From contig NZ_CP159837.1 of NCBI RefSeq assembly GCF_040564635.1, positions 4,451,001-4,515,000 of the forward strand: a stretch of 64,000 nucleotides of DNA, read 5' to 3'. Shown in pieces: positions 9,382 to 48,918 of this stretch. The position numbers and the translations under genes are program-made. The notes below the pieces were generated by a model. It was not told where the DNA came from and searched no databases. It was given only the letters and a program-made list of their open reading frames with translations. Positions within the stretch are counted from its first letter, which is position 1. Each line of letters opens with the position of its first letter. The DNA comes from Planktothricoides raciborskii GIHE-MW2. Its GTDB lineage: Bacteria; Cyanobacteriota; Cyanobacteriia; Cyanobacteriales; Laspinemataceae.

Positions 9382-9458
9382 AGTGGTGCGCTTAAGTCTA
9401 GAAACTCTGACATACTGCTAGGGTTTAATTAAGAAAAAACGAAAGGGAGAAACCCACA

Positions 9459-9484
9459 GGGAGTGCGATCGCACTCCCTTTTTT
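9459..9484 (+). terminator. Rho-independent terminator of ndhN
   Basis: A perfect 20-base palindromic stem (GGGAGTGCGATCGCACTCCC) is followed at once by six T. The stem centre contains the HIP1-like core TGCGATCGCA. It lies 78 bases after the ndhN stop. Confidence 0.9.
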
Positions 9485-9661
9485 CGTGTTAGGACTAAAG
9501 GCACGGGAGATTGATGATTCTGTTCATTGAGCAACCATCAACCCTAGCATCCGAGCCGTAACATACTAAAGAATACGAAATAAAATAGAAGAGAAGCATT
9601 GACTTATCTGCTATCTCTCCCTATCTCTCATTGAATTTGATCAAAAATCAACAAAAGGATT

Positions 9662-20131: not shown

Positions 20132-20878
20132 TTGCTTATCTCCAAATCAACAATAAAACTTGTTGTTTGTTACTGGTTATTAGTTATTGGTTATTGGTTA
20201 CTAGGTTTCTGATTCAAATAACCAATAACCAACAAGTATTGTTGGCTATTGGTTATTGGTTGCTGTTTATTCGGTTTCTGATGCAAATAACAAATAACAA
20301 TTACAGAGTTTTATTGACTACCCTACTATTCTGTCAAAAATGCAACCCTTTAAATATTAAATTTTAGTTTTGTTTTGTAATTTTATTAATTATTAGTTAT
20401 TAGTTATTTGTTATTTATTGGTTGTTGGTTGTTTGTTATTAGGCTTAAACGATAACAAATAACTAATAACCAACAACCAACAAACAGGAAACAGGGAACA
20501 GGCAACAGAGAACAGTGTTGCAGGGGAGCTTCAGGAGCTTCAGGAGAGAGTGAATAGTGAATAGTGAAAGGGAGGATGCATAGGAAAGAGGATGCATAGG
20601 AAAGAGGAAAGAGGATGCATAGGAAAGAGGATGCATAGGAAAGAGGAAAGAGGATGCATAGGAAAGATATTCTCTCCTCTCTTTTCTCTCCTCTCTTTTC
20701 TCTCTTGGCCATTCGCCCCTACGACTTTTCACTTTCCCCGTTCCACGCCACTTGCTAGACTTGGGGAGACCCCAAGATCGCAGTGGCTCCTGATAACTGT
20801 TCCCCGTTCCCCAACCAACAACTAACAACCAACAACCAACAAACAACTAACAACTAACAACTAACAACTAACAACAAA
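20132..20878. repeat. Repeat-filled intergenic region (heptamer arms, GAGGATGCATAGGAAA array)
   Basis: No gene is present. Three heptamer hairpins (GTTATTGG-type left arms, AACCAATAAC-type right arms) occupy 20160-20250, 20250-20310 and 20395-20486. They are followed by AACAGGG-type heptamers. An array of GAGGATGCATAGGAAA units covers 20573-20667. Then come CTCTTTTCTCTC tracts, a half copy of the GTAGGGGCGAATGG palindrome (near 20710) and more AACAACT heptamers up to the gmd stop. Open frames here (for example PLSYASSFLCI) are translated repeats. Confidence 0.85.
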
Positions 20879-22111: not shown

Positions 22112-24232
22112 ATGACTACTATCGATCAAATTATTCAACAAGAACCGAATCCATTTGATGCCGAAACTTTTTGGTCGGGTAATTTTTGGCAAGAAGACCA
22201 AAATCCTGAATTTGTGGTGGAGTCAATCCATCAAGAGGCAATTAAGGCGATCGGACAAACTCTGGATCTGATTTCCCAGGATCATCGCACTCGGACGTTA
22301 ATGCTGGAAGGAGAAACCGGATCTGGTAAGACATATTTGTTGGGACGGCTGAGACGTATGCTGAACCCAAAAGCCTTTTTTGTCTATATTGAACCCTTTA
22401 CGGCAAGTGATTATATTTGGCGGCATATTTTACGTTACACCGTTGATAGTTTATTAGAAGTTCCCGCCGGAGAACAAGATTCTCAGTTAATTTTATGGCT
22501 AAAAGGTTTGTGGGGTTTTAAACAGCGAGGCTTGCTGGACTGGTTGCGCGGGGAACGCCTTATGGTGATTAAAAACCTCCGGGCAATTTACCCAGCGGGA
22601 ATTTACAATGCCAATGAATTTTTTGGAGTTTTGTATGATTTAACCAATCCCAAATTAAAAGAGTTAGCTTGTGAGTGGTTGCGCGGCGATGATTTAGATG
22701 AAGAGCAGTTGAAATTGTTGCACGTTCAACATTCCATTGATACGGAAGATGCGGCCCAAAAAATACTGGCAAATTTTGGCCGCATCGCCGCTGAAAGTAA
22801 GCCTATTGTGCTATGTTTTGACCAAATTGATAATATTGCTCGTCTCAGTGATGGCCATATTGATTTACAAAGTCTGTTCAGCGTGAATTCAGTAATTCAC
22901 AATCAAAAGCTGAAAAATTTTCTGGTAATTATTAGTATTATTACCGATACTTGGCGACAAAATGCCCATCGCATCCAACCAACGGATAAAGACCGCGTTG
23001 ATGCTTCGATTGTATTGAAAAAAATTAACTTGTATGAAGCAGAAACTTTATGGAAAAGTCGCCTAAATCGGCTCTATCTTCAGGCAAATCCTCGGCCTGT
23101 TTCGTCCATTTATCCCCTGAGTCGAGATATCCTGGAAATTAAATTTCCCGGAGGAAAAACTCGTCCGCGAAATACGCTGATGTTGGGTCGGAAGTTATTT
23201 CAAGATTATAAACTTAGTTTGATGGAAAATGGCCATGCTGTTTCCAGGCAAAACGCAGAGGCAGGGGCAGAACCTTTAGAAATTTTGCAGGCTGAGTTAA
23301 TTGTTGAAGACTCTCGTCCTTGGACTGTGCCAACTTTAGAGGCTTTGGCAGATGAAGCTGATGCCCAAGTGGAGAAAAATGGCTCAAATTTAGCGACTAC
23401 GGCAGCGTTTAAGTTGGTTTGGTTGAGGAAGTTTAATCAAACGGTCGATCGCATTTCTCGGATTCGTCAATATTCTTCCCCAGAATTAGTTACGATGTTG
23501 GCTGAGGCGATCGCGGCGATTCAACCTGTGGAAATTCAACCTCGTTTTCTATCTTCAAGTCGGACTTATGCCAGTTATTCTCTCAGTTATCAATTATCGG
23601 GTAAATCAACTCAGGTGGGGGTGGTTTGGTCGGAAGATTTGAATATGGTGAAATTTTGCAATCTGATGAAGGTCTGCCAGGAGGCGATCGCCGAAAATCT
23701 CTGTCAAAATTTCTATTTAATTCGCTCGGAAAGCGTGGGAAATCCCACTAACCAAGGTTATCAACTGCACCAAAAACTATTTAGCCAGCCCCAGCATATC
23801 CATATTATTCCTGCTCTGAATTCGGTTCACTATTTAGTCACCTATCATGGTTTAGTTAATGATGCGATCGCTGGTGAATTAGTGGTCGGAGATACCACCC
23901 CTAATCTGGCTGAATTAGAATCCTTGATCCGCGAGTCAAATATTTTGTCAAATTGCCAATTATTGCAAGAATTAAGCCTAATTTCTGTCAATTCCGTGGC
24001 TGCCGATCCTGATAATTTGCTCAATGTCCAAGAATTTATCCTGAATCGATTAATGACTCAGCAGTGTATTGCCCGTCAGCGGTTAATCGAAGAATCCCGC
24101 AGTCAATTTAGCCCCGCAAGTGAGTCCCAAGTCCAAGGAATTATCGACCGTTTATGCCAAGAAAACGAAAAAATTAATATCTTAGACCCTAATGCCAAAA
24201 TTGAGGAGCAATTAATTTATTTTGCTCAATAA
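22112..24232 (+). CDS. Uncharacterised P-loop ATPase, paralogue A1 of three
   Basis: The 706-residue protein begins MTTIDQIIQQEPNPFD with an NPF motif (13-15) and GNFW (23-26), both shared with its two paralogues downstream. Walker A is GETGSGKT (67-74). Walker B-like IVLCFDQID has D237 and D240, with an aspartate-x-x-aspartate end rather than DE, as in STAND/ORC-like ATPases. A sensor-like strand (FLVIISIITDTW) follows. After a variable linker (about 375-430) a second conserved domain (about 440-620) includes VGVVWSEDLN, FYLIRSE and the signature SVHYLVTYHGLVNDAIAGEL (from ~571). I do not recognise that domain. A winged-helix-like end is possible. It is the first gene of a plus-strand block with two paralogues, two winged-helix-like proteins and a nuclease-translocase. 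Confidence 0.75.
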   Translation: MTTIDQIIQQEPNPFDAETFWSGNFWQEDQNPEFVVESIHQEAIKAIGQTLDLISQDHRTRTLMLEGETGSGKTYLLGRLRRMLNPKAFFVYIEPFTASDYIWRHILRYTVDSLLEVPAGEQDSQLILWLKGLWGFKQRGLLDWLRGERLMVIKNLRAIYPAGIYNANEFFGVLYDLTNPKLKELACEWLRGDDLDEEQLKLLHVQHSIDTEDAAQKILANFGRIAAESKPIVLCFDQIDNIARLSDGHIDLQSLFSVNSVIHNQKLKNFLVIISIITDTWRQNAHRIQPTDKDRVDASIVLKKINLYEAETLWKSRLNRLYLQANPRPVSSIYPLSRDILEIKFPGGKTRPRNTLMLGRKLFQDYKLSLMENGHAVSRQNAEAGAEPLEILQAELIVEDSRPWTVPTLEALADEADAQVEKNGSNLATTAAFKLVWLRKFNQTVDRISRIRQYSSPELVTMLAEAIAAIQPVEIQPRFLSSSRTYASYSLSYQLSGKSTQVGVVWSEDLNMVKFCNLMKVCQEAIAENLCQNFYLIRSESVGNPTNQGYQLHQKLFSQPQHIHIIPALNSVHYLVTYHGLVNDAIAGELVVGDTTPNLAELESLIRESNILSNCQLLQELSLISVNSVAADPDNLLNVQEFILNRLMTQQCIARQRLIEESRSQFSPASESQVQGIIDRLCQENEKINILDPNAKIEEQLIYFAQ

Positions 24233-24233
24233 A

Positions 24234-24346
24234 TTAATTTGTTGTTTGTTGTTTGTTGTTTGTTGTTTGTTGTTGGTTATTTGTTGTTTGTTTTTGCCTA
24301 AATCGCCCGAATAACAAATAACTAATAACCAATAAACAAGAACAAA
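24234..24346. repeat. Heptamer hairpin between ATPases A1 and A2
   Basis: A left arm of TTGTTTG units is followed by a ~20-base spacer (TTTTTGCCTAAATCGCCCGA) and a right arm AATAACAAATAACTAATAACC. The two arms are inverted, so the transcript could fold just ahead of the A2 start. Confidence 0.8.
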
Positions 24347-24371
24347 ATTTAATCAAATGAGGTAATATTCT

Positions 24372-26426
24372 GTGACATCCATCCAGCAAATTATTCAGGA
24401 AACCTTAAACCCGTTTGACTCGACAACGTTTCGCCCAGGAAATTTCTGGCAGGAACAGCAAGAAACGGATTTAACTGTGGATTCAATTCATCAAGATGTG
24501 GTGCATGAAATTGAAGAATTATTGCAACAAGTCAACCAGGATCGTCGTACCAGAACTTTGTTATTAGCCGGTGATTCTGGGGCAGGCAAAAGTTATTTGT
24601 TAGGGCGAATTAAAGAAAGTTTGAATTGTCAGGCGTTTTTTGCTTACATTGGCCCGTGGCCGGAAAGTGATTTTATTTGGCGGCATATTTTACGCAATAC
24701 GGTAGATAGTTTGATGTATGTGCCAACCGGAGAAAAATCATCTCAATTACTGCTTTGGATTAAGAGTTTATCGGCTGTTCACTCGGAAGGGTTTATGAAA
24801 CGCTTTTTGGGTGAACGGCAGTTGTTTATCCATAATCTAAAAGGAATTTTTCCTTCAGGGATTTATAACCCCAATGAGTTTTTTGGGGTACTCTATGATT
24901 TGAGTAATCCTGACTTGTACCCGATCGCCTGTGAATGGTTGAAGGGCGATCGCTTAGATGAAGAAAGTCTCAAACTATTGCGGGTAAAAAATGCTATTGA
25001 TACGGAAACCGCTGCCCGGAATATTTTAGGTAATTTGGGCAAAATTGCGGCGGTGACTCAGCCGATTGTTTTATGTTTTGATAATTTAGATAATATTGAC
25101 CGGGCTTTAGATGGATTTATTAATTTACAAGCTTTGTTTAGCGTGAATTCTATCCTACATAATGAAAAGCTGAAAAACTTTATCGTAATTATTAGTATTG
25201 TCACGAATACTTGGAAGCAGCATCAAAAGCGGGTACAAGGGGCAGACCTTGCCCGAATTGATCGAGAAATTCGCCTGCAACCGATTAGTTTAGACCAAGC
25301 AGAAGCATTATGGGCAACCCGACTTTATCCCCTACATCAACAAGCAGAAATTCACCCGCGATCGCGCATTTATCCCCTGTCTCGCGATGCCCTAAATTTT
25401 AAGTTTCCTGGGGGAAAAACCAAGCCCCGCTATGTGTTGATGTTGGGACGGCAGCTTTTTCAAGAAGCAAAACAAGTCGGACTTGATGATTTTCATCAAT
25501 CCCAACAAGAAAAATATCAAAAATATGCGGTTCATATTAGCAGACCGGATCCCTTAGCGGCGTTTAAATTACTCTGGCTGAAAGAATTTAAGAAAACCGA
25601 GCACAAAATTAGCCGAATTCGTCAGTTTTCCGCCCCGGAATTGATCAAAATGCTGCGAGAAGCTTTGGAAGCTTTACAGGTAATTGGCATTGAAGCGAAA
25701 CTATTGCCTAGTCCCAAGTATGCTAGTTATTCTTTAAGCTACCATTTGCCGGTACAAATTGGCCGAATTGGGTTAGTTTGGACAGAAGATCCGAATTTAG
25801 TTGGGTTTTTTCATATGATGAAAGCTTGTGAAAAAGCTTTGCTGATAAACCGGTGTAAAACTCTATTTTTGATTCGGTCTGAAAATTTAGGCACCAGGAA
25901 AAATCAAGGCAATCAATTATATAGTAAAATTTTTACCGGATATCCCCATCGTCATTTATTACCGGATATGATTTCGGTGCATTATTTAGCAAGTTATCAT
26001 AATTTGGTGAATGCGGCTTGTGCTGGTGAGTTGGTGTTAGGCGATCGCACTCCTAATTTAAAAGAGTTACAAGAGTTAATTAGAGAGTCTAATCTTTTAC
26101 AAGATTGTCCTTTGTTGGATGCGTTGGGAATTTTTGCCGGTTATACTCGGATTGTTGGGGTGACTGGGGTTCCCCAAAGAAAAATTACTTCTGGTCAGGA
26201 TCTTAGTCAGGAGTTGCAAAAGGTGAAAGATTATTTGTTGGCTTTAATGCAAACTCAGCAAATGATGGGTCGTTATGTGTTGATGCAAAATACTTTGGAT
26301 CAGTTTCCTGATGTTGATGATGTGGTGGTTAATCAGTTAATTACTGAACTTTGTCAGGAGGAAAAAATGATAATTCTGGATGAAACGGCGCCAGTGCATT
26401 CCCAGTTACTTTGCTTGTTGAAGTAA
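24372..26426 (+). CDS. Uncharacterised P-loop ATPase, paralogue A2 of three
   Basis: The 684-residue protein starts at GTG 24372 (MTSIQQIIQETLNPFD) with GAGG upstream. The architecture matches A1 residue for residue in the first half: NPF at 13-15, Walker A GDSGAGKS (67-74), and Walker B IVLCFDNLD with D237. The variable linker is shorter (near DFHQSQQEKYQKY). The C-terminal signature SVHYLASYHNLVNAACAGEL lies near 536, preceded by IGLVWTEDPNLVGFF and LFLIRSEN. A 38-base perfect palindrome follows the gene. The function is not known; the strict conservation of both halves argues for an active NTPase with a sensor or effector second domain. Confidence 0.75.
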   Translation: MTSIQQIIQETLNPFDSTTFRPGNFWQEQQETDLTVDSIHQDVVHEIEELLQQVNQDRRTRTLLLAGDSGAGKSYLLGRIKESLNCQAFFAYIGPWPESDFIWRHILRNTVDSLMYVPTGEKSSQLLLWIKSLSAVHSEGFMKRFLGERQLFIHNLKGIFPSGIYNPNEFFGVLYDLSNPDLYPIACEWLKGDRLDEESLKLLRVKNAIDTETAARNILGNLGKIAAVTQPIVLCFDNLDNIDRALDGFINLQALFSVNSILHNEKLKNFIVIISIVTNTWKQHQKRVQGADLARIDREIRLQPISLDQAEALWATRLYPLHQQAEIHPRSRIYPLSRDALNFKFPGGKTKPRYVLMLGRQLFQEAKQVGLDDFHQSQQEKYQKYAVHISRPDPLAAFKLLWLKEFKKTEHKISRIRQFSAPELIKMLREALEALQVIGIEAKLLPSPKYASYSLSYHLPVQIGRIGLVWTEDPNLVGFFHMMKACEKALLINRCKTLFLIRSENLGTRKNQGNQLYSKIFTGYPHRHLLPDMISVHYLASYHNLVNAACAGELVLGDRTPNLKELQELIRESNLLQDCPLLDALGIFAGYTRIVGVTGVPQRKITSGQDLSQELQKVKDYLLALMQTQQMMGRYVLMQNTLDQFPDVDDVVVNQLITELCQEEKMIILDETAPVHSQLLCLLK

Positions 26427-26429
26427 GAG

Positions 26430-26540
26430 GGGCAACGGATTGGCAACGGATGGGTTAACTGATGGGATAAGAGATTGGCAAGGGATTGGCAAAGGATGGG
26501 TTAACTGATGGGATAACTGATGGGCAACGGATTAGCGTGG
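26430..26540. repeat. GGATTGGCAACGGATGGGTTAACTGATGG-type direct repeats
   Basis: Blocks of GGATTGGCAA and GGGTTAACTGATGGGATAA recur two to four times between A2 and the next gene. No reading frame or hairpin was seen in it. Confidence 0.75.
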
Positions 26541-26568
26541 GGATGGGCAATAGATTGCGGATGGGATG

Positions 26569-26606
26569 AAAAGCTAATAACTTTTAGCTAAAAGTTATTA
26601 GCTTTT
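26569..26606. repeat. Perfect 38-base palindrome
   Basis: The arm AAAAGCTAATAACTTTTAG is followed directly by its exact reverse complement, with no loop base. It lies 143 bases after A2 and 56 bases before the next start. It could be a dimeric protein-binding site, a cruciform, or an mRNA hairpin that limits read-through; AT content is too high for a classical terminator and there is no T run beyond four bases. Confidence 0.9.
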
Positions 26607-26661
26607 GGATTGGTGCTAGGATTCGGATTTGATGCTGTTTAATTGATGTTAGAGAAAACCA

Positions 26662-27720
26662 ATGGATTCTAATGCAGTGAAATTTTTGTTAAATTTATTG
26701 AGTTTTCCCAATTATCGGGCGCCGATAAGTCACGTGAAACCTACGCCAAAAATGCAGGCAGCGGCACGAAATAAAATTTGTCGTGAATTGTGCGATCGCG
26801 ATTTAGTGGCTTGTTCGGAACAGATTAAAACACTCAGGATTTCTCAGCAGGGTAAGACTTGGCTTAAATCGGCTCAACTACAGGGAGAATTAACCTTAGA
26901 AGAATTGAAGGTATTACAAGCCTGTTTAACGGAAAAAATTTCTCCGGGTAAAACCGGATTGCCTGCGGATTCTCGTCTGAAAATTATTGCAGATTTAGCC
27001 CGTCGTGATTTGTTGGTGCTTGAGCCAGAAATTGATGAAGTCTGGTTGACGGAAACCGGACAAAAGTTTTTAATTCAAGATTACGATCCCAGGGAGCAGT
27101 CGGGGAATATTCCTTTTAATATGTTAGCGGATTATTTGCGATTGGTTCATCAATTTTATCAACAGCCAGCCCCAAGACTCATCAATCATATCCCAAATCA
27201 TATCCGAGGGGCGGTGAAAGCGAAGCTAATCCAGCCGTCAAAGCTGATGAATTACTCGGATAATTTTCCGATAAATGAACTGGATATTTTACAGACAATT
27301 CGCCAATTAGATATTCACTTAGGGGCGTTAAAAGATATGCCTACAGATATGCCCACAGATATGCCCACAGAAATGTCACCGATTCTACCCAGTGATGAGG
27401 ATATTTTACAACTGATTTCACAGTTAGATCGGGAGTTGGGTACAGAAAATTATTTGCCAATTTTTCATCTGCGGGAAAAGTTACAAAGTTTATTGGTTAG
27501 GGAAGAATTAGACCAAGCTTTATATCGTCTGCAAGCCAATCAGGAAATTCAACTAAAATCCTTGGAGGAGGTTCTCCATTACAGTCCAGAGTATTTTGAT
27601 GCGGCAATTCCTCAAGAAAAAGCATGGTCATTATTTTTCATTGTCAGGACTTATCCCTCGAAGGAAAAAATCAGGGGTGAGGATGAGGATGACAGGAAGG
27701 GTTTGATTACTTTTGATTAA
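26662..27720 (+). CDS. Winged-helix-like protein H1, partner of the ATPase block
   Basis: The 352-residue, soluble protein is not recognised as a named family. The N-terminal part (KFLLNLLSFPNYRAP, then RNKICRELCDRDLVACSEQIKTLRIS...GKTWL) has the helix-helix-wing rhythm of winged helices. A second such unit follows (LPADSRLKIIADLARRDLLVLE...VWLTETGQKFL). The C-terminal unit, ENYLPIFHLREKLQS...LDQALYRLQANQEIQLKSL, is a third. A 15-base repeat encodes DMPTDMPTDMPTEM in the linker. The last ~28 residues after LFFIV are absent from the paralogue H2 and look like a run-on after a changed stop. Probably DNA- or protein-binding; inferred from pattern and context. Confidence 0.6.
   Translation: MDSNAVKFLLNLLSFPNYRAPISHVKPTPKMQAAARNKICRELCDRDLVACSEQIKTLRISQQGKTWLKSAQLQGELTLEELKVLQACLTEKISPGKTGLPADSRLKIIADLARRDLLVLEPEIDEVWLTETGQKFLIQDYDPREQSGNIPFNMLADYLRLVHQFYQQPAPRLINHIPNHIRGAVKAKLIQPSKLMNYSDNFPINELDILQTIRQLDIHLGALKDMPTDMPTDMPTEMSPILPSDEDILQLISQLDRELGTENYLPIFHLREKLQSLLVREELDQALYRLQANQEIQLKSLEEVLHYSPEYFDAAIPQEKAWSLFFIVRTYPSKEKIRGEDEDDRKGLITFD
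27340..27378. repeat. 15-base repeat encoding DMPT units in H1
   Basis: Three copies of GATATGCC(T/C)ACA with a final AAATG variant give DMPTDMPTDMPTEM in the linker between the second and third winged-helix-like units of H1. H2 lacks it. Confidence 0.75.
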
Positions 27721-27813
27721 AAAATGTTTAATTTTGAAAAAAAATGTGCCAATTGCCCCAATTTGAGCGATCCTAGTATAACGGGCTAATCAATACATAT
27801 GAGGTGACATACA

Positions 27814-28668
27814 ATGGATGCTAAAGAACTGAAGTTTCTGTTAAAGTTATTGAGTTTCCCTAATTACCGTGCTCCTCTGAGTGAAATTCAACCAACCCCG
27901 AAAATGCGATCGCCGGAACGAAATAGCATTTGTCGAGAACTACGCGATCGCGAGTTGGTTGCTTGTCGGGAACAAATTAAAAATTTGACCATTGCCCCTC
28001 CAGGCAAATCTTTGCTCAAAATTGACTCCACCAATTTGCCGGTGACTCCCGAAGAAATTAAAGTGCTGCAAGCAAGTAGTCAAGGGCCAATTACTCCGGG
28101 AAAAATCAATATTCCTAGTCAGGAACGGGAAACGGTAATTGAGGGTTTAGCTAATCGTGGCTTTATTAAGACGGAAAAAGAAATTAAAGAAGTTTGGTTA
28201 ACCGAACGGGGTCAGCAATTTTTAATTGAAGAATATCAGTCTAATAGCAGTTCGGCGAATATTACTTTAAAAATGCTGACGGATTATTTGCGGTTGATGC
28301 GAAAAGTTCAGGTAAATTCTGCATATATTGCCACACCGAACCAGGCAATCTCATCGACAGTCGCTGCGGCAGATATTACGGCAGAAAAATCTGTGGGTAA
28401 ACCAAGCGATCGCGAGATTTTGCAAATTATCAGCGATTTAGATCGGGGACTGGGAACGGAGAATTATTTGCCAATTTTTCACTTGTGGGAAAAATTGAAA
28501 GCTTCTATGTCTAAGGATGAGTTCGATCGCGCCCTTTATCGGTTGCAACGGGAAAATAAAATAGAACTAAGTTCTTTACAAGAAGGGATGAATTACACTC
28601 CAGAGCAAATTGCCGCCGGAATTCGTCTAGAATTCGGGGGCTATCTATTTTTTATCATCCTCAATTAA
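27814..28668 (+). CDS. Winged-helix-like protein H2, paralogue of H1
   Basis: The 284-residue protein starts MDAKELKFLLKLLSFPNYRAPLSEIQPTPKM, with GAGGTGA before the ATG. It shares with H1 the N-terminal RNSICRELRDRELVACREQIKNL, the VWLTERGQQFLIEEY middle and the C-terminal LDRGLGTENYLPIFHLWEKLK...ALYRLQRENKIELSSLQE. It ends GGYLFFIILN, which is probably the ancestral C-terminus. It lies 93 bases after H1 and 49 bases before ATPase A3, so the three are likely cotranscribed. No catalytic motif is visible. Confidence 0.65.
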   Translation: MDAKELKFLLKLLSFPNYRAPLSEIQPTPKMRSPERNSICRELRDRELVACREQIKNLTIAPPGKSLLKIDSTNLPVTPEEIKVLQASSQGPITPGKINIPSQERETVIEGLANRGFIKTEKEIKEVWLTERGQQFLIEEYQSNSSSANITLKMLTDYLRLMRKVQVNSAYIATPNQAISSTVAAADITAEKSVGKPSDREILQIISDLDRGLGTENYLPIFHLWEKLKASMSKDEFDRALYRLQRENKIELSSLQEGMNYTPEQIAAGIRLEFGGYLFFIILN

Positions 28669-28717
28669 GAATGCGTGTTTGGGCAAAATTTATCGATGTT
28701 TTAGGTGGAATTAACTT

Positions 28718-30745
28718 ATGGCAACTATTGATGACATTATTAAACAAGATGTGAATCCGTTCGATCCAGTGACTTTTTATACGAGTGATTTTTGGCAAGA
28801 ATCACAACAGTCTGGATTGACGGTAGATTCAATTCACCAAGAGGCGATCGCAGAAATTACCGAATTACTGAACCAAGTCGCTAAAGATCATCAAACTCGC
28901 AGTATTTTACTACTTGGCGATCGCGGTTCGGGGAAAAGTTATCTGTTATCTCGACTCAAACAGCAACTTAACCAATCGGCTTTTTTTGCCTATATTGGTC
29001 CGTGGGTAGAACAGGGGCAAATTTGGCGACATATTCTCCGTTATACCGTGGATAGTTTAATGCAAAAGCCTGCTGGAGAAACCGAGTCCCAGTTATTGTT
29101 ATGGTTAAAGAGTTTATCCGCATTTCGCGATCGCGGGCTGAAAAAGAAAATCTTGGGAGAAAGGGGTTTATTTATTCATAACTTGAGGGGAACCTATCCG
29201 TCAGGAATTTATAACCCTAATGAATTTTTTGGCGCCCTGTATGATTTAACCAATCCTGACTTATATTATACCGTTTGTGATTGGTTGCGCGGTGATGATT
29301 TAGATGAAGAAAGTTTAAAAGCGATTCGAGTCAAACGGTCAATTGACAATGAAACTGATGCCAAAAATATTTTAAGCAATTTTGGCAAAATTTCGGCAAA
29401 TACTCAGCCCATTGTCCTCTGTTTTGACCAGATCGACAAAGTGGCAGAGACTGCCGGCCATGAAGAACTCCAAGCATTATTTACCGTCAATACCACCATC
29501 CATAATGAAAGGCTGAAAAACTTTTTCATTATTATTAGTCTGATTAAAAATACCTGGGAACAACATAAAAAAAATATTCTGGAAGCGGATCAAGATCGAA
29601 TTTATAAAGGAGTTTCTCTCAAATCAATTACCTGGGATCAAGCAGAAAGCTTGTGGGCAAAACGGCTAGATTTTTTTCATCAACAAGCCAGCCCCAAACC
29701 CCCTTCACCGATTTATCCTTTAACTCGACAAGTATTGGAAGCAAAATTTCCTGCGGGGAAAACATTTCCTCGCTATGCCCTACAGCTTGCCCGCCAACTC
29801 TATCAGAATTATAAGTTAAATTTGGCCGTTGATGTAAAGCCAAATCCCCAACCAGAACCACCGCAAACAAAAACACCGCTAGACGCGATCGCCGCCTTTA
29901 ATTTGCTTTGGCAGCATGAATTCAAAAAAACTCAGGAAAAAATCCTGAAAATTCGCCATTTTTCTAATTCAGAATTGATTCAAATGTTAAGAGAAGCCCT
30001 GGAAGCTTTCGAGGTGGCGAAAATTCAACCGCGACTGTTACCCAGTGAAAAATACCACAATTCTTCCCTGAGTTGTCAGTTGCCCCAAGTTTCTGGAAAA
30101 GTGGGATTAGTTTGGACAGAAGATAGCAATTTGATGAATTTTTTCCACTTTATGAATGCTTGCCATAAAACAATTAACCATAATCTTTGCCAAAAGCTAT
30201 ATCTGATTCGAGAAACCGGGTTGGGAAATGCCCAAAATAAAGGCTACACCCTTTACAAGCAAATTTTTACCGGGATGCATCATGTGCATATTATTCCCTC
30301 CCTAGAATCAGTGCATTATTTGGCCACATATCACAGTTTAGTTAATGCGGCTGCGGCTGGAGAATTAGTGGTAGGCGATCGCACTCCGAATATTCCTGAA
30401 CTGCAAAGTATTGTGCGCGAAGCTAAAATATTGCATGATTGTCAATTATTACAAGATTTAGGAATTTTTGCCCAAACTCAAAGCAAGCAACCAGACTTGG
30501 TGAACCCCAAAGACGAACAATTACTCAAAGCCAAGAAATATATGTTGAGTTTAGTAGAAACTCAGCAACTTTTGGGGCGGTCTATTTTAGAAAATAATAT
30601 GCTGACTTTTGATATGCGGCTGACTCCAGAAACCATTAATCAATTGATTTGTGAATTGGTAGACGAGCAAAAAATTCAGGTTTCCGATCCGGGGACAAAC
30701 CGGGCTGATCAATTTATTTTTTGGGTGCCTAAATCTGCCGTATAG
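28718..30745 (+). CDS. Uncharacterised P-loop ATPase, paralogue A3 of three
   Basis: The 675-residue protein starts MATIDDIIKQDVNPFD, with AGGTGG upstream. Walker A is GDRGSGKS (67-74); Walker B is IVLCFDQID with D237 in the same register as A1 and A2. A proline-rich linker (PNPQPEPPQTKTP) replaces the linkers of A1 and A2. The second domain has VGLVWTEDSNLMNFF, LYLIRETG and SVHYLATYHSLVNAAAAGEL (near 531). A CCGGG hairpin follows the stop. Because the linker and the C-terminal tail differ most between paralogues, the three may form a mixed oligomer or respond to different inputs; that is inference. Confidence 0.75.
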   Translation: MATIDDIIKQDVNPFDPVTFYTSDFWQESQQSGLTVDSIHQEAIAEITELLNQVAKDHQTRSILLLGDRGSGKSYLLSRLKQQLNQSAFFAYIGPWVEQGQIWRHILRYTVDSLMQKPAGETESQLLLWLKSLSAFRDRGLKKKILGERGLFIHNLRGTYPSGIYNPNEFFGALYDLTNPDLYYTVCDWLRGDDLDEESLKAIRVKRSIDNETDAKNILSNFGKISANTQPIVLCFDQIDKVAETAGHEELQALFTVNTTIHNERLKNFFIIISLIKNTWEQHKKNILEADQDRIYKGVSLKSITWDQAESLWAKRLDFFHQQASPKPPSPIYPLTRQVLEAKFPAGKTFPRYALQLARQLYQNYKLNLAVDVKPNPQPEPPQTKTPLDAIAAFNLLWQHEFKKTQEKILKIRHFSNSELIQMLREALEAFEVAKIQPRLLPSEKYHNSSLSCQLPQVSGKVGLVWTEDSNLMNFFHFMNACHKTINHNLCQKLYLIRETGLGNAQNKGYTLYKQIFTGMHHVHIIPSLESVHYLATYHSLVNAAAAGELVVGDRTPNIPELQSIVREAKILHDCQLLQDLGIFAQTQSKQPDLVNPKDEQLLKAKKYMLSLVETQQLLGRSILENNMLTFDMRLTPETINQLICELVDEQKIQVSDPGTNRADQFIFWVPKSAV

Positions 30746-30752
30746 AGATTAA

Positions 30753-30801
30753 AAAACCGGGTTATTTGAACTTAATTTAGCTTAATTTAAAACCCGGTTT
30801 T
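30753..30801 (+). terminator. Possible terminator or attenuator between A3 and the nuclease-translocase gene
   Basis: An 11-base perfect stem (AAAACCGGGTT / AACCCGGTTTT) encloses a 27-base AT-rich loop that contains CTTAATTTAG twice. Four T end the stem. The core is the same ACCCGGTTT element seen elsewhere, so it may be a repeat that happens to sit here. It could reduce transcription into the next gene. Confidence 0.5.
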
Positions 30802-30849
30802 GGCTAAATATTTAAACGTAAATAATCAATTATTCATTTTTTTCGACTA

Positions 30850-33399
30850 ATGGTTTATTGGCAAAATGCCCAAGATATTCAACAGTTGATTAGGGAATTA
30901 ACCCACTCAAAAATTATCTGGGCTGATACAGAAGTGGCTGATTGGCAGACACAGAAACCCCGACTATCTTTGATTCAAGTATTGAGTGATCGCGCGGACT
31001 TGACTGGGAAAAATGGCTATATACTAGATGTATTGGATCGACCAGATTTGGTGACATATTTTATTCAGCAAATTATGGTCAATCAGAGAATTGAAAAGGT
31101 GTTTCATAATGCCAGCTATGATTTAAAATTTTTGGGCAAATCGCAAGCCAAGAATGTGACTTGTACTTTAAAAATGGCGAAAAAAATTGGCCGCAATCGC
31201 CTAGGAGTGACCAATTTAAAACTCAAAACTTTAGCCGCCGAACTGTGCCATTTTGCGGATATTCACCCCGAATCACAAACTAGCGACTGGGGTCAGCGTC
31301 CCCTGAGTCAAGCACAACTAAATTATGCTAAAATGGATGTGGTTTATCTGTCGCAAGTTCATCAGTATTTACTGCATAAATTAAAACCAGAACATCCGAA
31401 TTATCAGGAGAACTTTATGCCTCAAGAAAAATCAGCAGCATCAACGGCTTTGACTGCCACAGATTTACGAGTTGCCTTTGAATGTCCTCGGTTATTTTAC
31501 TTGGGTCAGCGGTTTGGAGGAATGACCCTATTTTTACCCCCCAATGAAATGGGAGGCATTGGCAACCCTTTTCACGATTTAGCGAAAAAATTTACTCTTT
31601 TAATTCAGGAAAACCCTCGGTTTCAAGATAGTTTAAATTTGCCCATTGACCAGATTAACCCCAAAACTGTGGCGCTTCAGATGCAACAGCTTTTTTATGA
31701 GTTGGTCTTTTTGCCCTATCTGCAAAATGCGATCGCCCAAGAACCGAAAAAAATCGCCACATTAAATCAAATTTGGCAAGGATTACAAGGACTAATTCGT
31801 CGCTATGCGGAAATTTTAGTGGCAAATCGACGTGATTATTCTGCTGAACAGGTGATTAATCAAACTTTTGTGAGTCAAGAATTGACTATTCAGCATTTAT
31901 TTCAATTACCGGATGGAACAAAACAACTGGTTAAGGGACAATTAGATAGTTTAATTTTGAAGGGCGATCGCCTTTGTGTGGTGGAATATAAAACATATCA
32001 ACCGGCAGATTTAACGGCGCAATTAGCCCAAGTTGCTTTATACAGTTATATGTTATTCCAAGAGAAAAAACAGCCGATAGACTCTGCGGTTTATTGCGTT
32101 CTGCCAGAATTTAAAGAATTGCTGTTTTCTTGGGAAGAATTAGAAGCAAAATTTCACCAGCTTATTCCCCATAAATTAGCCCAAATGCGGCAATGGTTAA
32201 TCTGGGAACCGCCACAACCGAATCCTCCACCTCCGACTCCTCAGTCGCAACTTTGTGAGATTTGTTCTCAGCGGAATAAATGTCAGAGTTTTTTTGCAGA
32301 AAATCCCGCCCAATTTTCTATTCAAAAAGTGAGCAATCCCCCCCAAACTCCCCTTAAAAAGGGGGGGATAGAGGAAAATATTGCCCAACAATTAATCAAA
32401 ACTTTGGCATCTTTTAAAATAGGCGTCGATTATTTAGGGGCTGCGGTAGGACCAGCATTTATTAGAGTAAAACTGAAACCGCATCTGGGGGTAAAAGTGG
32501 CTGGTTTAGTCAAATTATCGGCGGATTTACAAGTGCAATTGGGGATTAATTTTCCCCCGATGATATCCCCACAAGCCGGTTATGTGAGTGTGGACTTGCC
32601 CCGCAGCGATCGCCAAGTAGCCCAGTTTGAAAGTTATATTCAACAGCAGCAAAATCCTATTGATGCGGAGGTGAAAATTGCCATTGGTATTGATTTAGAT
32701 GGTCAGCTAATTGAAGCGGATTTATCTGACCCCAATACTTGTCATTTTTTGGTGGGGGGAACCACAGGCAGCGGCAAAAGTGAGTTTCTGCGATCGCTGT
32801 TATTATCTTTACTTTATCGCCATTCTCCTGACCAGTTAAAAATTGCCTTAGTTGACCCCAAACGGGTGACATTTCCCGAATTTGCCCAGATGCGATGGTT
32901 ATATTCTCCTGTAGTCAAAGATAGCGAAGCTGCCATAGAGTTAATGACTGAATTAGTGGCGGAAATGGAATCGCGTTATCAGCGTTTTGAGTTGGCTGGT
33001 TGTGCCGATATTCAAAGTTATAATCAGAAAAAAACTAATCAGCAGTTACCGAGAATTGTTTGCATTTTTGACGAGTATGCTGACTTTATGGCTGAAAAAG
33101 AAACCCGTAGTGAATTAGAATTAAGTATTAAAAGATTAGGGGCAATGGCTAGGGCGGCGGGCATCCATTTAATTATTGCCACTCAACGGCCAGAAGCGAA
33201 AGTTGTCACCCCGATTATTCGCTCAAATTTACCCGGACGAGTTGCCCTGCGGACTGCCAGTGAAGCGGATTCTATGATTATATTAGGAGGGAAACAAACG
33301 GCGGCGGCTTATTTATTAGGTAAAGGGGATTTACTATATCAAGTAGGCGCACAGTTGCAGCGATTACAAAGTTTATTCGCGGCAAATTTTCAGATTTAA
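30850..33399 (+). CDS. DEDDy exonuclease - Cas4/RecB-like nuclease - FtsK translocase fusion
   Basis: The 849-residue protein has three domains. Residues 1-185 form an RNase D-like 3'-5' exonuclease with the full DEDDy set: D26 and E28 (WADTE), D91 (HNASYD), Y159 and D163 (YAKMD). Residues ~200-485 form a PD-(D/E)XK nuclease of Cas4/RecB type: H242, D366 (GQLDS), E379-x-K381, QVALY. Cysteines C212, C469, C472 and C478 are placed as in the Cas4/AddB iron-sulfur cluster. Residues ~510-849 are an FtsK motor with its alpha subdomain, Walker A GGTTGSGKS (636-644) and Walker B FDEYAD (D741, E742). It has no membrane domain and no gamma domain. The linker at 495-507 (NPPQTPLKKGG) is encoded by a dispersed repeat. 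It probably translocates along and degrades DNA; the target is unknown. Confidence 0.85.
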   Translation: MVYWQNAQDIQQLIRELTHSKIIWADTEVADWQTQKPRLSLIQVLSDRADLTGKNGYILDVLDRPDLVTYFIQQIMVNQRIEKVFHNASYDLKFLGKSQAKNVTCTLKMAKKIGRNRLGVTNLKLKTLAAELCHFADIHPESQTSDWGQRPLSQAQLNYAKMDVVYLSQVHQYLLHKLKPEHPNYQENFMPQEKSAASTALTATDLRVAFECPRLFYLGQRFGGMTLFLPPNEMGGIGNPFHDLAKKFTLLIQENPRFQDSLNLPIDQINPKTVALQMQQLFYELVFLPYLQNAIAQEPKKIATLNQIWQGLQGLIRRYAEILVANRRDYSAEQVINQTFVSQELTIQHLFQLPDGTKQLVKGQLDSLILKGDRLCVVEYKTYQPADLTAQLAQVALYSYMLFQEKKQPIDSAVYCVLPEFKELLFSWEELEAKFHQLIPHKLAQMRQWLIWEPPQPNPPPPTPQSQLCEICSQRNKCQSFFAENPAQFSIQKVSNPPQTPLKKGGIEENIAQQLIKTLASFKIGVDYLGAAVGPAFIRVKLKPHLGVKVAGLVKLSADLQVQLGINFPPMISPQAGYVSVDLPRSDRQVAQFESYIQQQQNPIDAEVKIAIGIDLDGQLIEADLSDPNTCHFLVGGTTGSGKSEFLRSLLLSLLYRHSPDQLKIALVDPKRVTFPEFAQMRWLYSPVVKDSEAAIELMTELVAEMESRYQRFELAGCADIQSYNQKKTNQQLPRIVCIFDEYADFMAEKETRSELELSIKRLGAMARAAGIHLIIATQRPEAKVVTPIIRSNLPGRVALRTASEADSMIILGGKQTAAAYLLGKGDLLYQVGAQLQRLQSLFAANFQI
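32335..32375. repeat. Dispersed CCCCAAACTCCCCTTAAAAAGGGGGGG repeat inside the fusion gene
   Basis: An inverted-repeat element (CCCCCC...CCCC TTAAAAA GGGGGGG) lies in frame at the junction of the nuclease and FtsK parts and encodes NPPQTPLKKGG. A related copy (CCCCTAACCCCCCTTTCCAAGGG) stands at about 50300 in non-coding DNA. Confidence 0.75.
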
Positions 33400-36206: not shown

Positions 36207-37910
36207 CTAAACAAACAACTCTGGAAAGCGATCGCGCAATTGTTGATTTAATTCCGGCAGGCGATCGCGCATTTGGACATACCAATCGCGCCGTTGACGA
36301 TAATGTTGGGAAAGTAAGCGATTATGAGACACCCACTCATAAGCATTTGCCGCCAAAGTTCGCCGCAATTGAATATTAACAATTAACTCTTCTAACTTCA
36401 GGGCAAAATCTTCAGGCGATCGATAAATTAACCCGGTTTTCCCTTCAACGATTGTTTTTTCATACACCGTCGGACTTGCCAACACTGTCACCCCATGTCC
36501 AGCACATTCAATAAACTTCAGATCCGATTTCATCTGATTAAAGCGAGTTGGATTTAAAGGTAACAAGGCAATATCACAAGTTCTTAAAATTTCTTGATAT
36601 CGCTCATAAGGACAAATGGGTTCAAATTGTTTTTGCGTGGTCGGCAATGCATCAAAAAATTGCTCATCATAAATTACCTGGAAACGAAGCCGATCTTGAT
36701 ATTTTTGCACCAGGCGATTAATTGCTGGCATAATCAGTTGCCAATCCTCTTCTCGACGAAATGCCCCAAAAAATATCGTTACCGAATTATCTTCAGGGTA
36801 AATCCGTGGTTCGGGCAAATAGGGCAACTGATTAGGAAAAACTGCTACATTAGGATTAAATTGGCGCAAATATTCTCCCAATGTTTCCGTAGAAGTTTGG
36901 ACACAGTGACAACCCCGGAAATTAAAAAACTGACCCTGGGCATATTCGGGACGCCATAAGGGATCGTCATCGGTTTCGGCGACAATTAAATAATCTCGTT
37001 CTAGTAAGGCTTTAATTTTAGGAATGTCGCCGGGATAACTCAGCATTGACCGCTGCCAAATAAACACTTTTTCTTCTTGAGGTAGGGCAATATTTAAATC
37101 AGCAGTTTTCACCGTTGCCACCGTTCTAACTCCGGGAATTGTCCGGGTTAAAGCATCGGGTTCAATTACTCTAATTCTATAAACTGGCCACGAACCCATC
37201 ATATTAGTTTGAATCAGTAATCGCCGGGGCGGTTGGGAGGATTTTGTAGCGCGAATTATATATTGAAAAGCCCCGGTTTCTGTGGCAAATATTCCTGAAT
37301 TAATCCCTAATGCTTGAACCACGGGCGACATAAGTTTTTGAAATCGATGATATTCTTCCGCTTTGCGTCCAATGGTTTGAATTTCATCGATTTGTAATCC
37401 CGCTTGCATAAATAGTTGTTTAATACTATCTAAGGTAAAAAAATGCAGGTGAGTGCGGTCTAAGATGCCTTCGTCTTGGTATTCCCATTGTCCCGCTAAA
37501 AGACGGGCCAGCGATCGCCAATGTTGAATATTAGGAATACAAGCGAGGATTTGACCATCATCTTTTAACCATTGACAATGGTGTTTCAGGGTCATCCAAG
37601 GGTCGATCGTATGTTCCAGAACATCCCCATAAACCAAACAATCAACAGTCCCCTGGGGAATGTTAATATCTGTTTCCAGATTTTCGGCATTGCTGACAAT
37701 TACTCGGTCAATTCTGGTGGCGGCAATTTCCGCCGCTTGGAGATTAATTTCTATGCCAATATATTGACCATGAGGATTAACCCGCTTATATTCCTGACCT
37801 AATGCCCCAGCGCCACAACCCACTTCCACGATGACTTGGGCATCACCGGGTAGCAGTTTGAGTAAGGTGGGGTTGATGCGATCGTAGTAATCTAAATTAG
37901 CAGCATTCAT
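36207..37910 (-). CDS. SAM methyltransferase - glycosyltransferase fusion, copy 2
   Basis: The 567-residue paralogue of copy 1 has the same domain order: [18 protein letters not shown] and [19 protein letters not shown] in the methyltransferase, then [16 protein letters not shown]. The glycosyltransferase half has [28 protein letters not shown]. The start is ATG 37908-37910 ([20 protein letters not shown]). The 65 codons upstream in frame are a heptamer array (NNQQPTT-like) and are excluded. Copy 2 keeps the canonical GDVLEH of methyltransferase motif post-I, which copy 1 has changed to NDIFPQ, so copy 2 may be the catalytically normal one. Confidence 0.8.
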
Positions 37911-38343
37911 TTGATAATTGTTGTTGGTTGTTGGTTGGTGGTTGTTGATTGTTGGTTGGTGGTTGTTGATTGTTGGTTGGTGGTTGTTGGTTGTTGGTTG
38001 TTGGTTGTTGGTTGTTGATTGTTGATTGTTGATTGTTGGGTAGGGATTCTTTTGTTGTTGGTTGTTTAAAAATATAACAAATAACCAATAACAATCAAAA
38101 AACAAAAAAATTGTGAATTATTTTCAGTGTTTTTTTTGGATGACAAGTGTTATTTTTATTGGGTATTTTTTGTGGGATATTTGTTAATTTTTGACCAAAA
38201 AATACGCCAGAACAAAAGAATCCCTACCCAACAACAAAAGAATCCCTACCCAACAACAAAAGAATCCCTACCCAAAAACCAACAACAAAAGAATCCCTAC
38301 CCAACAACCAACAACAAACAACATTGTTAATTATTCTCGAGAT
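37911..38343. repeat. Heptamer array and 22-base GAATCCCTACCC repeats
   Basis: From 37911 to about 38060 lie TTGTTGG/TTGGTGG/TTGATTG heptamers, followed by GGGTAGGGATTCTTTTG. AT-rich DNA follows to 38210. From 38213 to 38330 come four copies of AAAAGAATCCCTACCCAACAAC in the reverse orientation. So the outer parts are inverted with respect to each other. No gene is seen. Confidence 0.85.
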
Positions 38344-41901: not shown

Positions 41902-43066
41902 CTAACTTTCATTAACAAATGCAAGATGCTCACGCATCCAGGGCGTATCTACCAAAGCCCGCAAGAATATCCCGCGAGCGCCATTTACGTCTCGATCCAT
42001 CACCTTTCCATCAAGATCCGACTTAATGGTTTTCGCCCCGCCAATTGCTCGAATCTCACCAGTCCAGCTAACCGTTTTGCTGGTGTACCCTTCACAGACA
42101 TCCACCACCAGAGACCCGCGCTCTGTTGCTTTATGTTTCAGGAATTGCTCGAAACGGTAATGCCCAAATGAAAGCATATTCCGCACAGTCTTTGAGCGGA
42201 TTTTTCTTGTGGCCTTGCGGCTCATATTTGAAGTCTCAAACGTTGGCAGGAGAATTACATCAAAGTTGTCTACCAGAAATCTGGCGGCAATGCGGATGCA
42301 ATTCATCTACCAGGTTGCGAATCCTCGCCCTGATCCTGTCAGCGGCTTTTTTCATCCGCCGCCGTTGCGGGGCGCTTACACAGCTAAATCGAGAAATCAG
42401 ATCGTCGAGGTGATGACATAGACGTTGAATCCTGGAGAAATCTGACTCTCCTATCTTCCCGACTTTCTGTTCAGAAAAGAAGGTTAGGAATGTTCTAACT
42501 CCAGGGTCTAAGGCTACCACCCGCCCTTGGTTGTCGGGCTGATGGGTGGTAGGCCCGGATGAGGGGACGCACAGATAATACTGCCCGCGGACACGAACTA
42601 ACCGACAGTCCCCAAAGTTTTCCGGCAACTCTTCTGCATAGTCAAGTTGACCCAAAATTGTGTGGTATATGCCCCGAGGCTTAACGGCAGATTTTGGGAT
42701 ATAGCATGACTGGTAAGGGTTCTTTCTGGATCTCAAAGAGACCTGCTGACAGCAAAGAGTCTTTTTGTACTTCGCTTTAGCATTGCTGACCGCCTTGCAA
42801 GCGTCCTTAACCGCTATCGATTTAATTTGGTAAGGCACGGAAGAGCAAAACTCTGGCAATGATTTCAATATGTCGCCTTTAATGGCTTTCCAGTTAGCCT
42901 TGGTGTCAGGCTGCTGGAGGTACTTTACGGTGGTATTAAAGACGAGTCTTGATACCCCAAACCATTGCCTAATCAGATTTCTTTGAGTCGCATTTGGATA
43001 GATCCGGATCTTGCTTGATTTTCTGACCGTATTTCCTGAGTCCGTGCATTCTGCAACTGAAGACAT
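41902..43066 (-). pseudogene. tnpB: TnpB (RNA-guided nuclease family), frameshifted
   Basis: Two frames make one TnpB. The first (to 42260) has the N-terminal KIRIYPNATQRNLIRQWFG and the first RuvC aspartate in VVALDPGVRTF. The second (41902-42306) has the glutamate in VILLPTFETSNM and the last aspartate in DRDVNGARGIF. Reading NLVDELH in frame one and then RIAARFLVDNFDV in frame two restores the family sequence, so a single extra base near 42295 breaks the gene. The usual CxxC...CxxC zinc ribbon is missing: TSKTVSWTG and KTIKSDLDG stand where cysteines are expected. The start is put at ATG 43066, inside tnpA. Probably inactive. Confidence 0.82.
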
Positions 43067-43568
43067 GAATGATGGACAGAAGATCGGCGGTAAGTTCTGA
43101 GTCGGGGCTGTGAACAGTGTTGTCGAGAACCACGATTTTTCCACCGTTTTGCTCGACCATCCACTCAATAAGCTCGAATCCGAATCTTGCCAGTCTGTCA
43201 CGGTAGGCAACAACAAGCGTGAACTGGTCTCGGCGCATAAGTCGTTCCAGTAAGGTTTTAAGTCCTTTCCGCTTGAAGTTGAGTCCCGATCCGATATCTT
43301 TGATGATTTCGGCTTTTGGGAACAGGGAGACCATGTAAGCAACTTGTTTATCCAGGTCGTCTCTCTGCTTAGTGCTGCTAACTCGGCAATAGCAAATCTG
43401 ATAGTCGGTCTTAGGCTTTGACTCGTAAATAAAGCTGTCAACGTCAAATAGACGTTGATTTGCCGCATTTCTGATTGAGTAAATCCGACCTTGATCTGCA
43501 TATTTCCGGAGTGTGTTGGGGTGCAAGCCCGTCCGTTTTACCGCTACGCGGAGAGGAACTAAGCTCAT
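42969..43568 (-). CDS. tnpA: IS607-family serine recombinase TnpA
   Basis: The 199-residue protein begins with a MerR-like helix-turn-helix (PLRVAVKRTGLHPNTLRKYADQGRIYSIR). It then has the resolvase domain IxYCRVSSTKQRDDLDKQVAYM, with the catalytic serine in RVSS, and LVVAYRDRLARFGFELIEW with the conserved arginines. The order HTH then catalytic domain is the IS607 pattern. The frame is intact. It ends with a lysine/aspartate-rich tail and overlaps the tnpB start by about 100 bases. Confidence 0.88.
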   Translation of the reverse strand: MSLVPLRVAVKRTGLHPNTLRKYADQGRIYSIRNAANQRLFDVDSFIYESKPKTDYQICYCRVSSTKQRDDLDKQVAYMVSLFPKAEIIKDIGSGLNFKRKGLKTLLERLMRRDQFTLVVAYRDRLARFGFELIEWMVEQNGGKIVVLDNTVHSPDSELTADLLSIIHVFSCRMHGLRKYGQKIKQDPDLSKCDSKKSD

Positions 43569-48098: not shown

Positions 48099-48918
48099 AT
48101 TAATTGTTGACTGTTGATTGTTGATTGTTATTTGTTATTTGTTATTTGATTAACAACCAACAAACAACAATCAACAACCAACAAATAGGGAACAGGGAAC
48201 AGGGAACAGGCAACAGTGGTGAATAGTGAATAGGGAATAGGCAACAGTGGTGAATAGGGAATAGGGAACAGGGAACAGGGAACAGGGAACAGGGAACAGG
48301 GAACAGGGAACAGGCAACAGGGAACAGGGAACAGGCAACAGGGAACAGGGAACAGGCAACAGGGAACAGGGAACAGGGAACAGGGAACAGGCAACAGGGA
48401 ACAGGGAACAGGGAACAGGCAACAGGGAACAGGGAACAGGGAACAGGGAATAGGGAATAGGGAATAAAAAATAGTAAATAATGAATAGTGAATAGTGAAT
48501 AATGAATAGTAAATAATAAATAGTAAATAATGAATAGTAAATAATGAATAGTAAATAATGAATAGTAAATAATGAATAGTAAATAATGAATAGTAAATAA
48601 TGAATAGTAAATAATGAATAGTAAATAATGAATAGTAAATAATGAATAGTAAATAATGAACAGGGAATAGGGAACAGGCAACAGTGGTGAATAGTGAATA
48701 GTGAATAGTGAATAGTGATACTTCTTTTAACTTTTCACTTTTAACTTTTCACTTGTAGGGGCGAATGGCCATTCGCCCCTACGACTTTTCACTTTTAACT
48801 TTTCACTTGTACGGGCGAATGCGCTCGTCGCCCCTACGACTTTCCCCGTTCCCTGATAACTGTTCCCCGTTCCCCAACCAACAACCAAAGAATCCCTACC
48901 CAACAACCAACAAATAAT
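48099..48918. repeat. Large heptamer tandem array region (~800 bases)
   Basis: 48104-48187 holds opposed TTGATTG and AACAACC arms. 48188-48465 holds about forty AACAGGG/AACAGGC/AATAGGG/AACAGTG heptamers. 48466-48665 holds alternating AATAATG-AATAGTA heptamers (14-base period). At 48725-48845 come TTTTCACTTTTAAC repeats with a perfect 28-base palindrome (48755-48782) and a degraded second copy (near 48811). Then follow AACAACC heptamers and GAATCCCTACCC. Open frames on the minus strand (SLFPVPC-type) are repeat translation. Confidence 0.9.
48755..48782. repeat. Perfect 28-base palindrome GTAGGGGCGAATGG/CCATTCGCCCCTAC
   Basis: Two exact 14-base arms with no loop, flanked by TTTTCACTT on the left and GACTTTTCACTT on the right. 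A half copy is at about 20710 and related hairpins are at 18717 and 48811. Confidence 0.9.

Follow-up and report, generated by a model that had tools for sequence, protein, structure and literature searches.

Analysis of the window (the whole analyzed stretch, 64,000 nucleotides) revealed a cluster of six genes at 22112-33399, the last of which encodes a fusion protein designated H (Table 1). The five co-directional genes upstream of H, on which a preliminary description of this DNA was silent, comprise three paralogous F genes and two paralogous G genes. Elsewhere in the window, overlapping open reading frames at 42260-43568 appeared by eye to be an IS607-type pair (a resolvase with a MerR-like start and a TnpB-like protein). 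Low-complexity repeats with short coding-like units (CSLFPVP, LFTIHY, TNNHQP) lie at 48142-48681, at 20463-20846, and at the start of 36207-38105.

Table 1. Features of the six-gene cluster and of the Dnd locus of the same genome
Feature	Position	Strand	Description
F1, paralogue of F3	22112..24232	+	706 aa
F2, paralogue of F3	24372..26426	+	684 aa, GTG start
G1, paralogue of G2	26662..27720	+	352 aa
G2, winged-helix-like	27814..28668	+	284 aa; same family as the G preceding F-H in other cyanobacteria
F3, AAA_16/KAP-type ATPase, weakly Orc/Cdc6-like	28718..30745	+	675 aa, directly upstream of H
H, fusion protein	30850..33399	+	849 aa, ATG start, 0 internal stops
DEDDy 3'-5' exonuclease domain of H	30862..31383	+	aa 5-178; D26, E28, D91, Y159, D163; Pfam DNA_pol_A_exo1, E=3.3e-25
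Cas4/Dna2/RecB-like PD-(D/E)XK domain of H	31450..32286	+	aa 201-479; D366, E379, K381; Pfam PDDEXK_1, E=4.6e-11
FtsK-alpha domain of H	32374..32601	+	aa 509-584; Pfam FtsK_alpha, E=3.2e-8
FtsK/SpoIIIE motor of H	32665..33192	+	aa 606-781; Walker A (GSGKS end, 640-644), Walker B (D741 E742); Pfam FtsK_SpoIIIE, E=1.6e-39
Dnd locus of the window genome	L148, 9335-19735		dndB, HNH endonuclease, dndC, dndD, second weakly DndB-like protein

Analysis of the H protein sequence with Pfam predicted a DEDDy exonuclease, a PD-(D/E)XK nuclease, an FtsK-alpha domain, and an FtsK motor, in this order, and all four matches exceed the curated cut-offs. Conservation of the active sites was determined in an alignment of 54 H sequences, namely 51 chosen from 76 named full-length open reading frames and those of the window, L149, and L151. 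All 54 sequences retain D91, Y159, and D163 of the exonuclease; D366, K381, C212, C469, C472, and C478 of the nuclease; and K643, S644, D741, and E742 of the motor. D26 and E28 are present in 52 sequences (the exceptions are L103, with a gap, and L100, with other residues), and E379 is present in 50, with D in the remaining 4. The cysteines C212, C469, C472, and C478 are predicted to be Fe-S ligands. Since the maximum 19-residue Kyte-Doolittle mean of H is 1.16, no membrane segment is indicated. Pfam matches of H at E≤1 did not include FtsK_gamma, the DNA-reading domain; chromosomal FtsK has a membrane domain and a gamma domain, whereas H has neither. These results agree with the preliminary description, which had recognized the three DNA-enzyme domains, their order and catalytic residues, and the lack of a membrane domain; the exonuclease and Cas4-like parts that it proposed are both backed by Pfam matches above cut-off.

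The label "Cas4-like" given there holds in the wide Cas4/Dna2/RecB sense and not in the narrow one, as the Cas4 equivalog model TIGR00372 gave 28.5 bits for H against a cut-off of 65. Scanning of 52 H nuclease domains revealed PDDEXK_1 in 48, Dna2 in 15, and Cas_Cas4 in 10. H and the Fe-S nucleases of the Cas4, Dna2, and AddB types share the PD-(D/E)XK core, together with four cysteines that are invariant; H differs from Cas4 in scoring below the Cas4 cut-off and in being fused to a motor. Searching the Protein Data Bank (PDB) sequences with the H nuclease-domain profile revealed no relative (best E, 0.23). No CRISPR gene was recognized by eye among the listed open reading frames of the window.

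Searching for relatives of the H exonuclease among PDB sequences revealed diDNase, NrnC, RNase D, and Rrp6. The DEDDy core is common to H and its best PDB matches NrnC, diDNase, and RNase D, and in comparison with these proteins no HRDC domain was found in H by Pfam. The EXOII motif of H is HNAxxD, whereas the available text of PMC11706625 gives H(F/Y)(A/G)RFD and HHAxFD for NrnC/diDNase. H86 and N87 are unchanged in 54/54 aligned sequences, and a dinucleotidase role of the H exonuclease appears unlikely because its motif departs from that of NrnC/diDNase. Among the parts of H, the exonuclease is the one most often lost. It is missing or shortened, with the nuclease and the motor kept, in genomes G101, G121, G159, and G278, at locus L110, and on a Pseudanabaena plasmid; in G278, an in-frame deletion takes out D91. 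L107, which has the same H length as G278, probably represents the same genome. Stand-alone DEDDy proteins of 307 to 450 aa, about 50 to 60% identical, are present in the order to which the window belongs. A single origin of the fused exonuclease is compatible with the data (AU p = 0.42), so that a single fusion event was not rejected.

The F proteins match two Pfam ATPase families: AAA_16 is above cut-off in F3 and F2 and just below it in F1, and KAP_NTPase is above cut-off in F3 and F1. The orc1/cdc6 model TIGR02928 matched F with E values of 0.003 and 0.013, far under its cut-off. Neither Pfam nor comparison of the F profile with REase profiles revealed a REase family in F. The Walker B aspartate of F is followed at position 238 by Q or N, without exception among the 54 aligned F sequences; such a residue, found in the F1-F3 family, is unusual for an active AAA+ ATPase. 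The presence of Q/N in place of the catalytic acid suggests that F may be a slow switch or loader and not a motor. No Pfam family was found for G. Its profile gave weak winged-helix signals in two places (MarR-type HosA, E=0.0013, aa 76-173; Zalpha 34L, E=0.0096, aa 197-253), and the DndG model did not match it.

The search in named genomes returned relatives of which the best 80 of 143 were all cyanobacterial by title. At 81 loci (these 80 and the window), H was found in 81, F in 77, and G in 70, and several of the F and G misses fall at contig ends. To describe the distribution, 386 genomes from the phylum, including 105 from the window's order, were searched, with two H candidates scored per genome. 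Some H match at E≤1e-10 was found in 101/386 genomes, many of these matches being merely separate DEDDy or FtsK proteins. Hand sorting of the 105 genomes of the order revealed an open H frame spanning nuclease and motor in 37, broken remains in 6, and none in 62; the 37 include G131, with a degenerate nuclease, and G101, G121, G159, and G278, with an incomplete exonuclease. Family f6 (42 genomes) has 20 open, 6 broken, and 16 absent cases, and a lone F remains at the site in 3 of the 16 genomes without H.

F was searched for in 80 of the 105 genomes and was found in 47. H was never without F in the tested genomes (37/37 with an open H frame). Because every tested carrier has F, H is not a stand-alone enzyme. 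F lies far from H in G051, G101, and G233, and G adjoins the distant F in G051 and G101, the two of these loci that were examined. F without an open H frame was found in 10/80 genomes (G072, G109, G118, G119, G199, G231, G305, G306, G320, and G385); in G320, F is accompanied by G and by a solitary nuclease-like protein with a degenerate active site and no motor.

The inheritance of H was studied in 30 carriers by comparing the tree of its nuclease-motor part with that of ArgH and IleS (found in 29/30 and 30/30, respectively). Tree distances correlated with r = 0.93, and 0/2000 permutations were as high (top value, 0.57); within f6, r was 0.84. H evolved about 2.75 times faster than ArgH+IleS. 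Strictly vertical descent is contradicted by the trees having only 10/27 splits in common and by a differing nearest neighbor for 17/30 rows. Also against it, G159 (family f8) clusters with G129 (f7) in the H tree, and its H looks transferred. Overall, the cyanobacterial system is passed on mainly along with the host lineage. A ParA-family gene lies no more than 3 kb from H in 19/22 carriers and 5/6 broken cases of families f6 and f3, and a ParA-like gene is downstream of H at many Nostocales loci; the remaining 15 carriers, outside f6 and f3, have no ParA-family gene within 3 kb of H. The ParA gene occurs in 98/386 genomes, with or without H, and in the window genome it is 0.79 Mb from H. It was rejected as a partner of H because it occurs independently of H and only marks the site. 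The overall picture is one of host inheritance and repeated loss in place. At the same chromosomal site, L160 (7355-9522) and L164 (10287-12397) carry a gene pair beside a lone F; one gene encodes an HSDR_N-like part fused to ParA (458 aa), the other a protein of the ParB_N type (244 to 262 aa).

Two remodeled H proteins, found in one genome each, have gained further domains. In G131, a Ser/Thr kinase is inserted between exonuclease and nuclease (L173, 10496-13870), with PADLOC matches to PD-T4-6 (1.2e-60), mad6 (4.2e-37), and MkoA (2.2e-29). Its in-line nuclease is degenerate, with N for D366 and E for K381, and a separate gene in the operon (L173, 5925-6785) encodes a 287-aa PD-(D/E)XK protein in which the motif residues (D, D, K) and four cysteines are present. 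H of L097, from a Prochloraceae genome, is extended at its N terminus (9326-10000) by DUF4145 (3.9e-14), a domain that occurs in type I restriction subunits.

Coverage of H of at least 80% was found in 0/817 matching plasmid records and 0/189 matching phage records, and a scan of viral contigs revealed no H relative. Pseudanabaena plasmid NC_019690 encodes an exonuclease-less H with 60% identity over 76% of H. Outside the H family, the closest motors are those of FtsK proteins from plasmids and cyanophages, with about 39 to 41% identity; a motor tree of 21 rows has very long branches and unsettled bootstrap values and is too deep to resolve the origin.

The preliminary description knew of no described system with this domain order. 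The class had, in fact, been predicted: in the available text of their paper, Rakesh, Aravind, and Krishnan (2024; PMC10853773) predict anti-invader systems of the Orc/CDC6-linked "HerA/FtsK capture" type, note that a 3'→5' exonuclease can be joined to their FtsK part, and describe the neighborhoods as mobile. In 2026, related authors widened the capture idea to BREX-related systems (PMC12839542, available text). A narrow literature search, which tests absence weakly, found no published experiment on the class. G-F-H is assigned here, as a probable member, to this predicted Orc/CDC6-linked HerA/FtsK capture type. As far as the capture systems are described there, they share with G-F-H an active REase (in H, PDDEXK_1 with the kept D366/E379/K381) and an FtsK motor with FtsK-alpha, and a subset shares with H the exonuclease fused to the motor protein. 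An AAA+ ATPase and a wHTH partner would be further common parts, F being weakly Orc/Cdc6-like and G weakly winged-helix-like. H appears to differ in combining exonuclease, REase, and motor in a single chain. The capture ATPase has an inactive REase between AAA+ and a C-terminal wHTH, which was undetected by sequence in F, and the capture wHTH is rapidly evolving and DndG-related; G gave the weak signals noted above and no DndG match. The capture neighborhoods are mobile, whereas that of G-F-H is mostly chromosomal and vertically inherited (r = 0.93 and a fixed f6 site, with one plasmid relative and G159 as exceptions). New are the H variants and the inheritance pattern, for which no description was found.

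G-F-H was also compared with known three-part restriction systems. SspFGH, from the available text of PMC8092258, has a similar G/F/H logic with a Walker A protein and an FtsK-like C terminus of SspH, and the SspH model matches a C-terminal part of H (325 aa) with 224 bits. SspH has about 1,770 to 1,800 aa compared to 849 aa for H, H has no linked sspBCD, and at E≤1 neither F nor G matched SspF or SspG. Membership in SspFGH was rejected because just the C-terminal part of H matches and matches to SspF and SspG are lacking. In cyanobacteria outside the order, L172, L255, and L256 encode SspH-like proteins of about 1,770 to 1,810 aa, L172 being a full-length match to the SspH model. The P-loop, wHTH, and nuclease-HerA/FtsK proteins of DndFGH parallel F, G, and H. 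DndH, however, has about 1,700 aa and eight domains, and H has none of its SF2, TRD, or methylase-like parts but carries an exonuclease in their place. F matches DndF at the P-loop level alone, and the DndG model gave no match; membership in DndFGH was rejected on the size and other domains of H and on the P-loop-level DndF match. HerA-NurA is a ring translocase with a nuclease and processes DNA ends in archaea. H resembles it in this combination, but its motor is of the FtsK type with FtsK-alpha, and Pfam revealed no NurA family in any of the six cluster proteins.

We consider it probable (about 0.6) that G-F-H acts against invaders as a chromosomally encoded restriction complex, of the Orc/CDC6-linked HerA/FtsK capture type, which would pump and cut foreign DNA. 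We infer recognition, loading, pumping, and cutting by the complex. G, through its winged helices, and F, as an ATP-binding AAA+ protein, might recognize foreign or unusually structured DNA; F, acting as a slow switch or loader, would together with G place H on this DNA as a ring of the FtsK type. The H motor would then pump duplex DNA past the Fe-S PD-(D/E)XK domain, which would nick or cut it, and the DEDDy domain, as an optional aid, could trim 3' ends or small products. Several results support this reading: F accompanies H in all 37 carriers, even where the two are unlinked (G051, G101, and G233); the H active sites are kept; G131, with D366 and K381 replaced in its in-line nuclease, has a separate intact nuclease in its operon; H took up conflict-system domains twice (kinase and DUF4145); its presence is patchy with decay, as in f6; its closest outside motors are those of plasmid and cyanophage FtsK proteins; its C-terminal half scores with SspH of a known anti-phage system; and a prediction of the class is published (PMC10853773, available text). 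The preliminary proposal that H could "strip and degrade invading DNA" remains the best-supported function, but H is neither of an undescribed kind nor a stand-alone enzyme. Counting against a defense role, the six-gene cluster contains no modification gene, host inheritance and the fixed f6 site also fit housekeeping, the kinase and DUF4145 gains are confined to one genome each, and F without H in 10/80 genomes indicates that F may have other work.

A housekeeping complex for chromosome processing, in which F would mark, or load at, structures formed in replication or recombination and H would resect DNA ends or clear them, as in HerA-NurA, appears unlikely to us. The largely vertical inheritance, the constant place next to the ParA-family gene in f6 and f3, and the strong conservation of the H active sites are in line with such a role, and exonuclease, Fe-S nuclease, and motor would form a plausible resection set. 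However, H is missing or broken in 22/42 f6 genomes and in 68/105 genomes of the order, the ParA gene is present and unlinked where H sits elsewhere, H evolves much faster than the host markers, and it has been fused to a kinase and to DUF4145. That H is a leftover, kept by chance, of a module for plasmid or conjugative transfer or for partition is highly improbable: its motor is closest to plasmid and phage FtsK, an exonuclease-less relative is carried by NC_019690, and the f6 site adjoins a ParA-family gene, but the active sites are kept across a deep tree and no matching plasmid or phage record reached 80% coverage of H.

A further alternative links H to phosphorothioate modification. H could be the restriction half of a Dnd system with genes far apart, attacking unmarked DNA like DndFGH or SspFGH, although we regard this as improbable. 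With the same low probability, G-F-H would serve, from an unlinked site, as the restriction side of the "orphan" Dnd modification of filamentous cyanobacteria: a compact DndFGH counterpart, passed on vertically, in which an Orc-like switch loads a nuclease-tipped FtsK motor on unmarked DNA. In the window genome, dndB, an HNH gene, dndC, and dndD lie together at about 1.13 to 1.14 Mb, about 3.3 Mb from H, with DndE at 3.65 Mb, and DndC is above cut-off in 93/105 genomes of the order. According to the available text of Jian et al. (2021; PMC8569181), dnd genes are enriched in Nostocales and dndFGH is absent. The F-G-H architecture resembles DndFGH. Both H carriers without DndC are, moreover, unclean exceptions. 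G159 lacks DndC and has DndE, in a draft of 200 contigs, and G051 (single contig, 99% complete) lacks DndC, DndE, and ArgH, which its sister G233 has in one stretch. Of the G233 10-kb pieces around DndC/DndE and ArgH, only repeats or paralogues were found in G051, whereas a piece from another 30 kb along the sequence gave a 95 to 96% match; the stretch is therefore missing from G051, through assembly or deletion. On the other side, the association of H with DndC is not significant (H+Dnd+, 35; H+Dnd−, 2; H−Dnd+, 58; H−Dnd−, 10; Fisher p = 0.21, kinship not being taken into account), so that co-occurrence gives the phosphorothioate link no statistical support. In addition, H and the dnd genes are unlinked, the SspF/SspG and DndG matches are lacking and that to DndF is confined to the P-loop, and G051, if Dnd is truly lost, still has open G, F, and H.

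A true phosphorothioate link would account for what the Dnd modification, near-universal in these cyanobacteria, protects against. As a putative anti-invader restriction complex, G-F-H offers a concrete and compact test object, in hosts for which laboratory strains and phages are known, for a defense class found only as a prediction.
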